Of a DNA stretch of 27,348 bases, positions 17,318 through 27,080 are shown one piece after another (position 1 is the stretch's first letter; every line of letters starts with the position of its first letter). Source of the DNA: a virus; IMG/VR virus record IMGVR_UViG_3300024520_000412, positions 1 through 27,348 of that record; one strand, given 5' to 3'. The notes below the pieces were generated by a model that had not been told where the DNA came from, ran no database searches, and saw only the letters and a list, made by a program, of their open reading frames with translations. Both the position numbers and the translations under genes were made by a program.

Positions 17318-18691
17318 TTATCTTTGTTCTAAAATCCAGTCGGAATTCAATTCTAGTGTTACATTGCTGTTTCCCGAATTGTTTCTAACTTGAAAATAAA
17401 CGTAGTCGTTTTTATCTAGCGAAATGTTAAACGAGAAGTTAAAAATTGCAACGTCTCGACCACCAACCAAGCTGTTAACCTGTCTTTTTCTTTCTGAAAA
17501 ATCAACAAAAGAACCCGAAGAATTATCCCACTTCCTAAGCCTTATTCCTAAATCGTTGTTAGCTGTTGATTCAATAACAAAGTTCACATTACACCTGTAT
17601 TCCCTTGGTGAATCTCCCAAGTGCCGCAACTGACCGCTTGAAGGGCTATCGTAATGCTCTAGATTTGAAGCTGACCAGATAGCATTAATATCGTACCATG
17701 TGGAGCCCGCACTAATATTTGTTAGGTTTTCACTTGACACTGTTAATCGACCACCTTCAAAAGTGTTCCCTACACCCCTATTACCTGTGAAGTCGCTAGA
17801 TAAATCCGATTTGTCTATGTTGCTAAAAATATTCGAATCCGTAGCGTCTGTCGCTCCGTTTCTCGTAAAGATAGCCCCTTTAACTTGTAGCGTTGACGGG
17901 TTCGGGAAATTGGAAGGTGCAAAATCCATGAAAGCCGCCAAGTTTGGTAAATCGCAATTTATATCAGTTAGAAATCTAGCTGACATTGAAAAACCAGCAC
18001 CAGCCTTAAAAAGCGGCTCAGTCATAGAAGACGAAAGAACACGAACAATTGACGTTGTTATTCTAAATCCGTTCCAATTGCCGCGAAGCTCTAAAGATGG
18101 TGAACCGCCAAAACGACCCGTACCAGTTTCTAAACCCTGTCTGTAACCGTCAATGTAACCTAGTGAAGCACAGTTATTATAGTTGATTCTTGAAAATTCG
18201 AAAGCGTCAAAACCAGTAGCCGATTCAAGCGCGTAAACCTTTGAATTAGAACCAGTTACTTCGATTGCGTAATCAATGCCTAAAACGTTACCGCTACCGC
18301 CAACAGGAGATGTAAACATTGTGTAATTTGGGTCGCTACAAACCATCTTGGATACGTCAAAATCAAAACCTTTAATATTAACCCCTCCCGCTGGAACTTC
18401 AATGGTTACGCCGCTCATATCAATGACACCGTCTAAGAAATATTCTTTACCCGAGTCAATTAAACCGCCCAGCGTTGTAGCTACGTTTTCTTGATTTACA
18501 ATTATTCTACTTTGAAAAGCTGTTGATTCGGGAGTTTCAGCTAATGCCGCCCAGCTTGAACCGTTCCAGCCTTCGTAGCGCCCATTGCTAGAATTGAAAA
18601 TTAACGCTTTTTGACCTTCAACTATTGCTAAATCTTCATTTGATAAGGTTTCAATTGGCGTTTGGTACTGCGTGTTGTGTTGTGTAGCCAT
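17318..18691 (-). CDS. Putative head or tail fibre protein, 457 aa
   Basis: The N-terminal 60 residues (SNEDLAIVEGQKALIFNSSN, YEGWNGSSWAAL) are the short repeat-like module seen on phage fibre proteins. Residues about 70-310 carry right-handed beta-helix-like patterns (IDMSGVTIEVPAGGVNIKGF, and LELRGNWNGFRITTSIVR). The C-terminal 130 residues (STWYDINAIWSASN, REYRCNVNFVIES, SLDKNDYVYFQVRNNSGNSN) form a jelly-roll/C1q-like domain often used for trimerisation or receptor binding. It lies between scaffold and protease, inside the head-gene block, so a capsid-attached fibre is plausible, though a tail spike cannot be excluded. The start overlaps the protease stop (TAATG). Confidence 0.75.
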   Translation of the reverse strand: MATQHNTQYQTPIETLSNEDLAIVEGQKALIFNSSNGRYEGWNGSSWAALAETPESTAFQSRIIVNQENVATTLGGLIDSGKEYFLDGVIDMSGVTIEVPAGGVNIKGFDFDVSKMVCSDPNYTMFTSPVGGSGNVLGIDYAIEVTGSNSKVYALESATGFDAFEFSRINYNNCASLGYIDGYRQGLETGTGRFGGSPSLELRGNWNGFRITTSIVRVLSSSMTEPLFKAGAGFSMSARFLTDINCDLPNLAAFMDFAPSNFPNPSTLQVKGAIFTRNGATDATDSNIFSNIDKSDLSSDFTGNRGVGNTFEGGRLTVSSENLTNISAGSTWYDINAIWSASNLEHYDSPSSGQLRHLGDSPREYRCNVNFVIESTANNDLGIRLRKWDNSSGSFVDFSERKRQVNSLVGGRDVAIFNFSFNISLDKNDYVYFQVRNNSGNSNVTLELNSDWILEQR

Positions 18692-19357: not shown

Positions 19358-21637
19358 TTACAGACTAGCGTTATCAATTTTATTCCTGTCTAAACTCTGT
19401 TGTGTTGTCACTTCTGAACCTACTACAAACGCTTGTACAGGCGGTTGATTTCCTAACGATTCAGCTAGTTGATTCGTTCCACTATCACCGACAACGTTAA
19501 AGCTTGCGGGTTGAGAACCACCACCGCCAACAGCACCGACAGAAGGCGCAGAAGGCGCAGAACCACCGCCACCGCCACCGCCGCCGCTTTTGTATTTTGA
19601 CGTTGCGATTTTACCGATGTTAATTGCAGTTGTACCAGCCGCCAAAGCTAAAGAGGCGATACCAGCGGGGTTAGGAATTGGTCCGATTGCGATAGGAGAT
19701 TGAGCCAAAGAACTAGTGATAGCGCGAAAACCGTCAATAACTGCCATACCTAACTGCAACCCTTTATTTATGTTAAATTGTCGCTTTGCTCTTTTCTCTT
19801 TGCTTGCGTCGTCTTGCTTTCCGATGTTGTTAGATATTTCGAAAATGCCTTGCGCCAAACTATTAACAGAACTTGCGTAATCTTGTGCTGTCTGTATCTT
19901 CTTGTCGAAACTTGCTTGTTGTCGTTCATTTTCTCTCGCCGCGTCAGCATCTTTAAGCGCGTTAAGTTCCTCAGACTGAGCCAATTCCAATTCCATTTCA
20001 AGTTCTTTATTTCCTACGGCTAAAGCAAATTTTACTTCGTAATCCGCTACAATCGCTTCAATTTCCGCTTCACTATCTGTATTTTTTAGACTGTTAAGAA
20101 GTTTAAATTGTTCGTCTTGTCTCGCGTATTCTTCTTCAAGTCTTTTAGCTTCTTGCTCGTTGATATTGATTAGTTCCGCTTCACGTTTTGCGGCTCTATC
20201 TAATACAATTTCATCTTCGGCTTCTTGTTGAAGTGTTTCGTAACTCGCTATAATATCTCTACGCTCACTTTGTAGCAACGTTTGATTCTTTTTAGTATCT
20301 TCTATTAACCTTTCGAATTTAATGTTGTTAGCGGTGATTTCGTCGCCTTCGATTTGGTCGTGTAAATCTTGCGCCAACCTACGCGCACTTATGCGATTTT
20401 TATTGTAAGTTTTCCAAGCTGCTAACCTTTTTTGTTGTTGCTTTTCCTCTTCGGCTGCTCTCTTCTCTTCTTCTGATTTCAAAAAATCCGAATAACTTTT
20501 TTCTTCTTCCCTTCTTGATAAGTTGAATTCTTCGTTATTTAGTTTTAATTCTGCTATTCTTGCCTTGTCCGTCTTTATGCGATCCTTTATAGATTTAGCT
20601 GTTTCGTTGTCTTCTTCTTTTAAAGCTTGCTCATATAGCTCTAATTGTTTATTATACCCATTCTTTAAGGATATTAGTTCTACAACTCTTTCACTTTCTT
20701 CTTCGCCTAGTCTTTTTAATCTTGCCTCGTGTTTTTCTTTTTCACTAGCTTCTAGGATTTCAAGCTCTCGCATTCTGCTTTCATGCAGCTTAGCACTCAC
20801 AACTCTTAGTCTTTCCAGTGCCGCTGCTTGTCTGTCTAAACTAGCATTCAACTCTTCGCTTTTTTCCGCTGCCGTTTCAGAATCAGAAGAAAAGAAAGCA
20901 AAAGCCGCAGCTAAAGCAGCAAAAGCAGCTATAAGTATAAACACAGGGTTTAGGCTCATAACAAAGTTCAGAACTTGCATTGCACCAGCGCCAACAATTT
21001 GCGCGGCTGCTAATGCTTTTTGCGCTAACGTAACACCTTTAGTTGCACCAGCAGCACGAACTTCGGCGGCGGCTAAGATGTTTGTACGAACCGTTCGAAC
21101 CTTTAAACCTAACGCCGTTTCGTCACTTAAAGCATTCGCAACGGAATTAACACCGTTTAAGATGGATTGAACCGCCATCATTTTCTGAATGCCTTTTGTA
21201 ATTTCTTCGTTCTCTGAGCCTAACAATTGAGTAACGCCTATCGCACCTTGTGCCGCGCCACCCATTGCTTGAAAGGCTTGTACACCTAATTGCAAATTGG
21301 GGAAATCCGCTGACATTGCTTTGGTTGCCGCTTTCGCGTTGTTTACTTGATCTTTTAAAACACCCGCTTCTTTTGCAAGCTTCTGAAATTGAGGACTCCC
21401 AACGTCTCCAATGTCTGCCATTTCGTCCTCTAATTCTCGTAAACGTGTCTTTACAGACTTCACAGCCTCACCTGTCTTCGCTGATTCTTTTTGAAATTTC
21501 TTCAAATTCTCACCGTCAAAAGTCTTGTCGGCTTGTTTGTCGATGTCTTTTAAATTCTGCTCGATGCTCTCTAAATCCTTATCTAATTTCTTAGTGCCTT
21601 TAGATTGTATGTCAACTTGTACTACTTTCTTAACCAT
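19358..21637 (-). CDS. Tail tape measure protein, 759 aa
   Basis: The length ruler of a siphovirus tail. It begins with coiled coil (DLESIEQNLKDIDKQADKTF; SVKTRLRELEDEMADIG), then a Gly/Ala-rich region and a very hydrophobic segment (222-250, NFVMSLNPVFILIAAFAALA) as expected for a tape measure. A long Glu/Lys/Arg coiled-coil region follows (about 270-580). The C-terminus is a Gly run of about eight residues with a Ser/Pro/Gly linker (residues ~680-715) and a hydrophilic tail. 759 residues correspond to a tail of roughly 110 nm if 0.15 nm per residue holds. Unusually, it is transcribed after the two large tail proteins rather than before them. It overlaps the preceding 50-aa gene. Confidence 0.9.
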   Translation of the reverse strand: MVKKVVQVDIQSKGTKKLDKDLESIEQNLKDIDKQADKTFDGENLKKFQKESAKTGEAVKSVKTRLRELEDEMADIGDVGSPQFQKLAKEAGVLKDQVNNAKAATKAMSADFPNLQLGVQAFQAMGGAAQGAIGVTQLLGSENEEITKGIQKMMAVQSILNGVNSVANALSDETALGLKVRTVRTNILAAAEVRAAGATKGVTLAQKALAAAQIVGAGAMQVLNFVMSLNPVFILIAAFAALAAAFAFFSSDSETAAEKSEELNASLDRQAAALERLRVVSAKLHESRMRELEILEASEKEKHEARLKRLGEEESERVVELISLKNGYNKQLELYEQALKEEDNETAKSIKDRIKTDKARIAELKLNNEEFNLSRREEEKSYSDFLKSEEEKRAAEEEKQQQKRLAAWKTYNKNRISARRLAQDLHDQIEGDEITANNIKFERLIEDTKKNQTLLQSERRDIIASYETLQQEAEDEIVLDRAAKREAELININEQEAKRLEEEYARQDEQFKLLNSLKNTDSEAEIEAIVADYEVKFALAVGNKELEMELELAQSEELNALKDADAARENERQQASFDKKIQTAQDYASSVNSLAQGIFEISNNIGKQDDASKEKRAKRQFNINKGLQLGMAVIDGFRAITSSLAQSPIAIGPIPNPAGIASLALAAGTTAINIGKIATSKYKSGGGGGGGGSAPSAPSVGAVGGGGSQPASFNVVGDSGTNQLAESLGNQPPVQAFVVGSEVTTQQSLDRNKIDNASL

Positions 21638-25811: not shown

Positions 25812-25880
25812 ATGACTTACTATTTTTACTATGACGTTCACGGTTTTAACATCATATATCTGTATCCAGACTATTTTTAA
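25812..25880 (+). CDS. Candidate 22-aa aromatic-rich peptide on the opposite strand
   Basis: An ATG 28 bases downstream of the plus-strand -7 box opens a 22-codon frame ending TAA at 25878-25880. The peptide MTYYFYYDVHGFNIIYLYP ends DYF; 10 of 22 residues are Tyr or Phe. The leader is A/T-rich (CCAATTAACTTTTAATT), similar in style to other starts here. It ends over the stop codon of the converging tail-completion gene. It could equally be a fortuitous frame on an antisense RNA. Confidence 0.3.
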   Translation: MTYYFYYDVHGFNIIYLYPDYF

Positions 25881-26332
25881 CAAATCGTCATAGTGTTCGC
25901 GTAGATTACGTCAAAAGTTGAAGTCCAACCAGCTAAATAGTTTTCAAAACGATCTGTCCAAGGCTGTATATCGGGTTGCCCGTCTAATTGAAACGTGCCG
26001 CCGTAATTATCACCCCTGTAAAAGTCTTCAATAGTCTTTACCGCCACGGCTAATTGAGTGTTTAAAATGTCGTGTTCGTCTGAATTACCTTTGAAGTCGT
26101 CAGTGGCTTTGTTGCTGGTTTGGTTTTCAATATCCATGTGAAGAATTGAAACGTTAAACCGTAGCGTATTACCTTCGTGGTTTACGCTGTTAATCATAAC
26201 GTGAGACAATGGGAACAATGTACGTTTATTAATGTCTACGTTAAAAATTGAACCCTCTGTTACACTCGTAACGTTTGGGTTTGCTTCTAAACTGTCTTTA
26301 AGAATCTTGATTATATCGTAATATCCTGTCAT
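25877..26332 (-). CDS. Tail-completion/terminator-like protein, 151 aa
   Basis: A 151-aa protein with an N-terminal helix (MTGYYDIIKILKDSLEANP), beta strands (FPLSHVMINSVNHEGNTLRF, NVSILHMDIENQ) and a C-terminal part containing YLAGWTSTFDVIYANTM. Size, fold pattern and position next to the gp10-like gene suggest a tail-terminator or tail-completion protein, which closes the top of the tail tube and joins the neck. Its ATG forms an ATGA overlap with the stop of the frameshifted chaperone reading frame (TGA at 26331-26329), which strongly supports that frame being translated. Family assignment is by context and resemblance only. Confidence 0.7.
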   Translation of the reverse strand: MTGYYDIIKILKDSLEANPNVTSVTEGSIFNVDINKRTLFPLSHVMINSVNHEGNTLRFNVSILHMDIENQTSNKATDDFKGNSDEHDILNTQLAVAVKTIEDFYRGDNYGGTFQLDGQPDIQPWTDRFENYLAGWTSTFDVIYANTMTIC

Positions 26333-27080
26333 GCTTTTGGTATTTGATTTTGAATTAAACTTTTTTCAATGTCGCCTTTTCCTTTGAGAAAGTCGAGGTA
26401 TGTGAGTGCAGACATGAGACCACCTCTAGTGGCATTTTCAATTTGCTGATAATCTGAATTAGCGAGGGCATATACGCTAGAGTACCAGCCCCATTTTCTG
26501 TTAAATTGTGCAGTTCTTGAGTAGTCAGTTCCTTCGTTATTTCCTGTACTGAATAAGTCAGGGAATGCCTTAATAATTCGCTCCCTAAATTGTAAAAAAA
26601 AACCATAGAACCTAATGCAGCTTCTAGCGGTAACGTTTTCATATCTTCGCCGTATTTATCCGAGCCGTGATAGTCTTCTATTAGATATTCTTCCTTTCGC
26701 CGCTTGGTTACAGGTCGATACATAACCGCCATTGCTTTGTGCATATCGTCCCACTCGTTAATATACTTATCGAGGTCGATATATTCGCCGAAACTCATAT
26801 TTTTCATGTCGTTAAGAAATCCGAATTCTTTACCGTCTACTTTTACAAGCGGGTGCAATCTTGAATCCATTGCGAACAGTGTATTAATATCGCCGCTTAT
26901 CTCTCGAATGTCCTGTAATCGAATATAACGAACTGATTCAATATTAAGCTTACAGAACACCGACACGTTAAGCTGTGCGAGTTCGTCACCTTCAAGGTGT
27001 TTAGCTTGCTTTAAATAGTTTTGATATTGTCCTAACGTAATTTCTGCTAGGCTCTGAGGTGCTGTGATTTGTTTTTCCAT
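26329..27080 (-). CDS. Frameshifted tail assembly chaperone (GT-like), about 250 aa
   Basis: Predicted -1 programmed frameshift product: 162 residues shared with the unshifted protein, then 88 residues from the -1 frame. After TTT codons at 26600-26595 the ribosome would slip one base and continue TTA CAA TTT AGG. The tail reads LQFRERIIKAFPDL, then KWGWYSSVYALANSDYQQI and GGLMSALTYLDFLKGKG, ending IPKA. The KWGWYSSVYALA signature is one I associate with a conserved tail chaperone domain in Bacteroidetes phages. The -1 frame has no early ATG of its own and stops exactly in an ATGA overlap with the next gene. By analogy to lambda G/GT this binds the tape measure protein during tail assembly. 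The coordinates span the joined product, not a single reading frame. Confidence 0.72.
26355..27080 (-). CDS. Tail assembly chaperone, unshifted (G-like), 241 aa
   Basis: The ATG at 27080 (MEKQITAPQSLAEITLGQYQ) is the chosen start. An in-frame extension 18 codons upstream runs toward the terminator at 27115-27150 and lacks a sensible leader. The first 160 residues contain ITLGQYQNYLKQAKHL, KEFGFLNDMKNMSFGEYIDL and DDMHKAMAVMYRPVTKRRKE, which match tail-chaperone-like proteins of Bacteroidetes phages as I recall. After the T9 slip region the zero frame continues YNLGSELLRHSLTYSVQEI and LTENGAGTLAYMPSL, which still looks protein-like. It is the first gene of the tail operon in this window. No promoter is convincing between its ATG and the terminator upstream. 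Confidence 0.78.
   Translation of the reverse strand: MEKQITAPQSLAEITLGQYQNYLKQAKHLEGDELAQLNVSVFCKLNIESVRYIRLQDIREISGDINTLFAMDSRLHPLVKVDGKEFGFLNDMKNMSFGEYIDLDKYINEWDDMHKAMAVMYRPVTKRRKEEYLIEDYHGSDKYGEDMKTLPLEAALGSMVFFYNLGSELLRHSLTYSVQEITKELTTQELHNLTENGAGTLAYMPSLIQIISKLKMPLEVVSCLHSHTSTFSKEKATLKKV
26594..26603 (-). other. Probable -1 frameshift slippery site
   Basis: Minus strand G followed by nine T (GTT TTT TTT TAC in zero frame). T TTT TTT fits the X XXY YYZ heptamer for -1 slippage. Eight bases after the run, AGGGA (26586-26582) can pair with TCCCT (26564-26560), a weak potential stimulatory stem. Confidence 0.7.

Follow-up and report, generated by a model that had tools for sequence, protein, structure and literature searches.

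A candidate tail assembly chaperone gene of Bacteroidota phages appears to encode two conserved tails in overlapping reading frames

The gene described here lies on the minus strand of a 27,348-nucleotide stretch of viral DNA (IMG/VR record IMGVR_UViG_3300024520_000412, positions 1 to 27,348; hereafter the window) and, judging from comparison with its relatives, appears to yield two proteins that have a common start and end in two conserved tails encoded in overlapping frames. That comparison also strongly supports a frame change into -1 that is programmed at a homopolymeric slip run. The gene is probably that of the tail assembly chaperone of a Bacteroidota siphophage, with two main isoforms. 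Chaperone isoforms that arise by a -1 frame change are known already; what sets this family apart is that the two tails overlap over a long dual-coded stretch and are both selected, together with an invariant homopolymer of 9-10 bases.

The slip run and the frames around it

The frame-0 open reading frame (26355..27080, minus strand) starts with ATG and encodes 241 residues, which comprise a shared N-terminal domain (approximately residues 1-160) and a frame-0 tail. A sequence-only reading of this DNA had pointed to a T9 on the minus strand in the codons GTT TTT TTT TAC, and the run is indeed found within this gene at 26602-26594, where it contains an in-frame T_TTT_TTT heptamer (26601-26595) and is one of only two nine-base A/T runs in the window. 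A -1 shift at the T9 leads into a 90-residue tail (26329..26601, minus strand; FFLQFRERI...KWGWY...) and gives a 250-residue product that ends with the TGA at 26331-26329. The 81 codons of the frame-0 tail (26358..26600, minus strand) lie entirely inside the -1 tail, so that this stretch is dual coding. The third frame is closed on the same strand by a TAG, read from the sequence at 26585..26587, four codons past the slip. As the sequence-only reading had described, the -1 extension lacks an early internal start and meets the next gene (25877..26332, minus strand; 151 residues, phrog_30964) in an exact ATGA overlap, with the TGA sharing bases with the ATG at 26332-26330. The signature that it had singled out, KWGWYSSVYALA, is present in the extension as well, and KWGWY proves to be the best-conserved segment of the -1 tail in 96 relatives.

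The -1 frame could instead be an independent gene that overlaps frame 0 and has a start codon of its own, as it is annotated in Nonlabens phage P12024L (AFM54761), and the records of P12024L and P12024S do list two hypothetical proteins, the second with an annotated start about 30 codons past the junction. We consider such a gene very improbable. The first ATG, GTG or TTG of the -1 frame in the window stands at codon 80 of a 108-codon open stretch; translation from this sole start would cover about 26 residues, and many relatives lack any such start. Through 40 codons past the slip, the -1 frame is free of ATG, GTG and TTG in 65 of 174 loci, and free of ATG in 158 of them. Moreover, conservation of the -1 frame starts at the slip site, ahead of any start codon. 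We propose that genes 40 and 41 of P12024L (L002/L259) and genes 38 and 39 of P12024S (L003) are probably one recoded gene each.

Just upstream of the gene, also on the minus strand, is a strong terminator-like hairpin of 13 pairs followed by a T-rich stretch (27151-27120). Given this hairpin, the gene may begin a new transcription unit, apart from the small open reading frame upstream.

Relatives and selection on both tails

The gene appears to belong to a family found in viruses of marine Bacteroidota. Among cultured phages, tblastn matched only P12024L and P12024S; in IMG/VR the relatives number in the hundreds, and the gene also occurs in three genome bins of Bacteroidota. Retrieval by protein homology matched the frame-0 product and the -1 tail, in a -1 relation to each other, across 258 loci (about 62 sequence clusters), and homologues of the -1 tail, which the sequence-only reading had asked after, are thus present in other phages. 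Two apparent exceptions to the offset (L089 and L090) have a broken frame 0 upstream of the slip, hence their computed offset differs. The frame-0 open reading frame matches phrog_32199 (E 2.5e-10), as do 93 of the 96 relatives compared. Three profile matches lacking the run (L423, L241 and L351), which were partial and lay in an unrelated frame full of stops, were discarded.

The slip-site homopolymer is 9 or 10 bases long in 258 of 258 loci: T9 in 230, T10 in 22, A9 in five and A10 in one. The A runs (TTA AAA AAA AAG; L027 and L175-L179) mark a single lineage, the only one in which an A-type swap was seen, and they occupy the same place with both frames kept. Every other relative has a T run of at least 9 at the slip site; away from it, 571 kb of sequence from related loci contains only 12 such runs, and the run is therefore there beyond chance. 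Homopolymers are prone to sequencing and assembly error, and error or a decaying gene might be invoked to explain the arrangement. The comparative data refute this explanation, to which we give next to no probability: hundreds of independent assemblies and two cultured phages show this run length with both frames open.

If one frame alone mattered past the slip, it should pile up differences at its third positions; codon-position differences were counted in 43 independent close pairs. Upstream of the slip, frame-0 positions 1, 2 and 3 differ at 0.068, 0.037 and 0.263, and past the frame-0 stop, with -1 as the sole coding frame, the -1 positions differ at 0.049, 0.025 and 0.189. Over the overlap the values for the -1 positions are 0.089, 0.053 and 0.102; that is, the third-position excess is lost over the overlap and regained past the frame-0 stop, which argues that both frames are selected. 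The drop at -1 position 3 (frame-0 position 2) in the overlap is significant by the Wilcoxon test (p = 7e-4, 36 pairs) and by a pooled Fisher test (p = 2e-9). In the overlap, changes that are silent in both frames run at 103 per 1000 weighted sites, on just 23 events; the rate is 24 where a change is silent in -1 alone, 15 where it is silent in frame 0 alone and 12 where it alters both proteins. Ordinary silent changes, for comparison, have rates of 68 upstream of the slip and 49 past the frame-0 stop. On this comparative evidence, both tails are under purifying selection and dual-coded in the same DNA. The near-equal size of the unshifted and shifted products (241 and 250 residues), which had been remarked on earlier and is borne out here, follows from this selection on both tails over shared DNA.

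It is conceivable that only the -1 tail is functional, with the frame-0 continuation an unselected run-off that merely looks conserved as a consequence of the -1 protein. Such a continuation would explain why the position of the frame-0 stop varies from 27 to 96 codons past the slip and why constraint is stronger on the -1 tail than on the frame-0 tail. It would not, however, account for the 2-3 fold reduction, lasting until the frame-0 stop, in changes that are silent in -1 but alter frame 0, nor for a frame 0 that stays open longer than expected under synonymous recoding of the -1 protein (p of about 0.03 or below for 18 of the 21 representatives), and we regard it as improbable. The frame-0 tail usually has 55-90 codons in relatives; it is just 27 or 38-41 codons in some lineages, and hence is not essential everywhere.

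Polymerase or ribosome at the slip run

The sequence-only reading proposed a programmed ribosomal frameshift. The programmed change into -1 is strongly supported, since the site, the frame relation and both tails are all conserved; that it is ribosomal is not established. We lean toward programmed transcriptional slippage over purely ribosomal -1 frameshifting because what is kept is a run of 9 or more without interruption, and not just an X_XXY_YYZ heptamer. Run length alone is no proof of the slippage mechanism, since hydrophobic codons of either frame could account for the outer T's. A heptamer is moreover contained in every T9, and the main support for the polymerase thus comes from the invariance of the last T and its compensation in T10C. 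Changing the last Phe codon from TTT to TTC alters neither protein (Phe/Phe; Leu TTA/CTA), and TTC makes up 23% of Phe codons upstream of the slip. Among the matches listed in a targeted IMG/VR scan, no family member has T7C or T8C, and the T7C and T8C matches (at least 14) are all unrelated sequences. The last Phe is TTC in 82 family members among the matches listed, with the run extended 5' to T10 in 82 of 82; the T7C, T8C and T10C counts are all samples of IMG/VR from targeted scans. Therefore, the run is kept at 9 or more beyond coding need and TTC is tolerated only with T10 among the matches listed, as is expected of transcriptional slippage.

To our knowledge, all characterised phage chaperone frameshifts are ribosomal. 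A purely ribosomal -1 frameshift at T_TTT_TTT in the style of lambda G/GT, leaving RNA polymerase no part in the switch, is a genuine though less than even possibility. An in-phase X_XXY_YYZ heptamer is present in 258 of 258 loci, including every T-type site; U_UU.U_UU.Y motifs are among the efficient ribosomal -1 motifs in E. coli and shift even without a stimulator (PMC4066793), and ribosomal frameshifting in phage tail chaperones has precedent (PMC5009743). However, T_TTT_TTC, with seven T's, would fit the heptamer and be silent in both proteins, yet it is unused among the matches listed, where TTC goes together with a lengthening to T10. A silent T7C change offers a simple prediction that would discriminate between ribosomal and polymerase slippage.

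The 3' stimulatory structure that is common, but not obligatory, at ribosomal -1 sites was also not found in conserved form when 96 relatives were set against control stretches. The mean z downstream of the slip is -0.22, no different from the controls, and the slip region has no Rfam match. The AGGGA/TCCCT stem suggested by the sequence-only reading (26586-26582 / 26564-26560, minus strand) does pair in the window, weakly (z about -1.4); it is not conserved and is probably non-functional.

In the mechanism that we favor, RNA polymerase would be the main slipper, on the homopolymer of 9-10 bases. Transcripts with one extra U would be read into -1, and those short of one U into the third frame, with a stop within 3-5 codons; the isoforms would be carried by the mRNA pool itself. 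Unswitched molecules would give the 81-residue frame-0 tail and a switched fraction the 90-residue -1 tail, and ribosomal slippage at T_TTT_TTT could contribute. Both the polymerase mechanism and the product ratio are inferred here. The fullest form of this proposal, in which polymerase slippage in a tail chaperone would generate mRNAs of three classes and as many as three proteins (one with the frame-0 tail, one with the -1 tail and one that is the bare N-terminal domain), both tails being conserved and encoded by shared DNA, is one that we advance tentatively, at slightly under even chance. The third frame does stop within 3-5 codons past the slip in 258 of 258 relatives; this early stop may be a by-product of dual coding and not an independent signal, since Leu TTA together with an Arg or Lys codon in -1 forces TAR.

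Runs of this kind have been put to use elsewhere. Nine-base A/T runs serve transcriptional slippage in Thermus dnaX and Shigella mxiE (PMC1088944, PMC5009743), and in many bacterial genomes selection against transcriptional slippage begins to show at a run length of nine bases (PMC1088944), a known threshold for polymerase slippage that the lengths kept here match. The present family shares with dnaX, mxiE and insertion sequence (IS) elements an uninterrupted run of about 9 bases in coding sequence (PMC1088944, PMC5009743) and a stop soon afterwards in one alternative frame, but differs from them in that both of its alternative tails are long and conserved.

The proposed chaperone role and known relatives

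The designation as a tail assembly chaperone, made earlier from the sequence alone, is likely by position and architecture, whereas no sequence or PDB match confirms it. The order TerL, T9 gene, phrog_30964, phrog_29822, phrog_35281, phrog_38559 and tape measure protein is found in relatives, and in the window as far as it reaches, where the tape measure protein (19358..21637, minus strand; phrog_9483, E 3e-10) lies five genes downstream of the T9 gene. The order around the gene is the same in two relatives, L054 and L028, the first of which also has the phrog_30964 neighbour. A place among tail genes upstream of the tape measure, combined with paired isoforms, fits a chaperone role, and conservation points to two isoforms with a common N-terminal domain by way of a programmed -1 change, as chaperones have. 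Sequence profiles from Pfam, NCBIfam and PDB yielded nothing credible for chaperone homology, no homology to named chaperone families was detected for the family, and a PDB fold search with both models was equally empty of credible matches. The only named structural match is a weak BFVD entry called 'tail assembly chaperone' (E 0.029); SAM_1 and haem-binding matches fell below the cut-off and were ignored.

The AF2 models were made by folding two parts, the frame-0 open reading frame and the -1 tail, separately. For the shared domain, the pLDDT is about 97 across residues 11-160; a long helix follows, within which the slip site falls. The model of the -1 tail is all helical (pLDDT 85), and the frame-0 tail is less certain, with block means falling from ~87 to 42. 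If lambda is a guide, the tape measure protein would be bound by the shared domain, and one of the two tails would bring in the tail tube subunit; the chaperone role and the partner of each tail are what we infer from position and from this likeness.

Lambda gpG/gpGT, like the homologous chaperone frameshifts of other phages (PMC5009743), resembles the present system in that two products with a shared N-terminal domain come from one gene upstream of the tape measure, and in its -1 change at a slippery run. In lambda, however, the shift lies near the 3' end of G. In the T9 family the frame-0 product ends in a conserved tail of its own, 55-90 residues long, which shares its DNA with the -1 tail; the two products are nearly equal in size, and the homopolymer at the slip site has 9 bases or more. 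Another close system is that of genes 40/41 of P12024L and 38/39 of P12024S, phages of Nonlabens (Persicivirga), which have the homologous pair in a -1 relation with a T9, directly after the large terminase, and which differ in a frame-0 tail of 27 codons and in their annotation as two separate hypothetical genes. Flavobacterium phage 6H, a distant structural relative, was read directly and rejected as an instance of the same arrangement, having T6C and an immediate -1 stop. Its gene (L260, AGN89393, 10352-10927) has the T6C near the 3' end and, later, a long -1 stretch that stays open and ends in a plausible tail; 6H may use a different recoding scheme.

The open-licence literature that we searched held no description of this family, nor of transcriptional slippage in a phage tail chaperone. 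The family extends the lambda G/GT scheme to a large, uncharacterised group of Bacteroidota phages in which there is a selected tail on either outcome of the frame choice, and among tailed phages it offers a clear natural example of dual coding over a long stretch of one strand. It further calls for annotation corrections in hundreds of genomes, where the -1 tail is currently missing or split off. Elsewhere on the minus strand of the window, a 457-residue protein (17318-18691; phrog_16509, E 3e-122) is flanked by the XkdF-like protease on one side and by the presumed genes for scaffold and capsid on the other.
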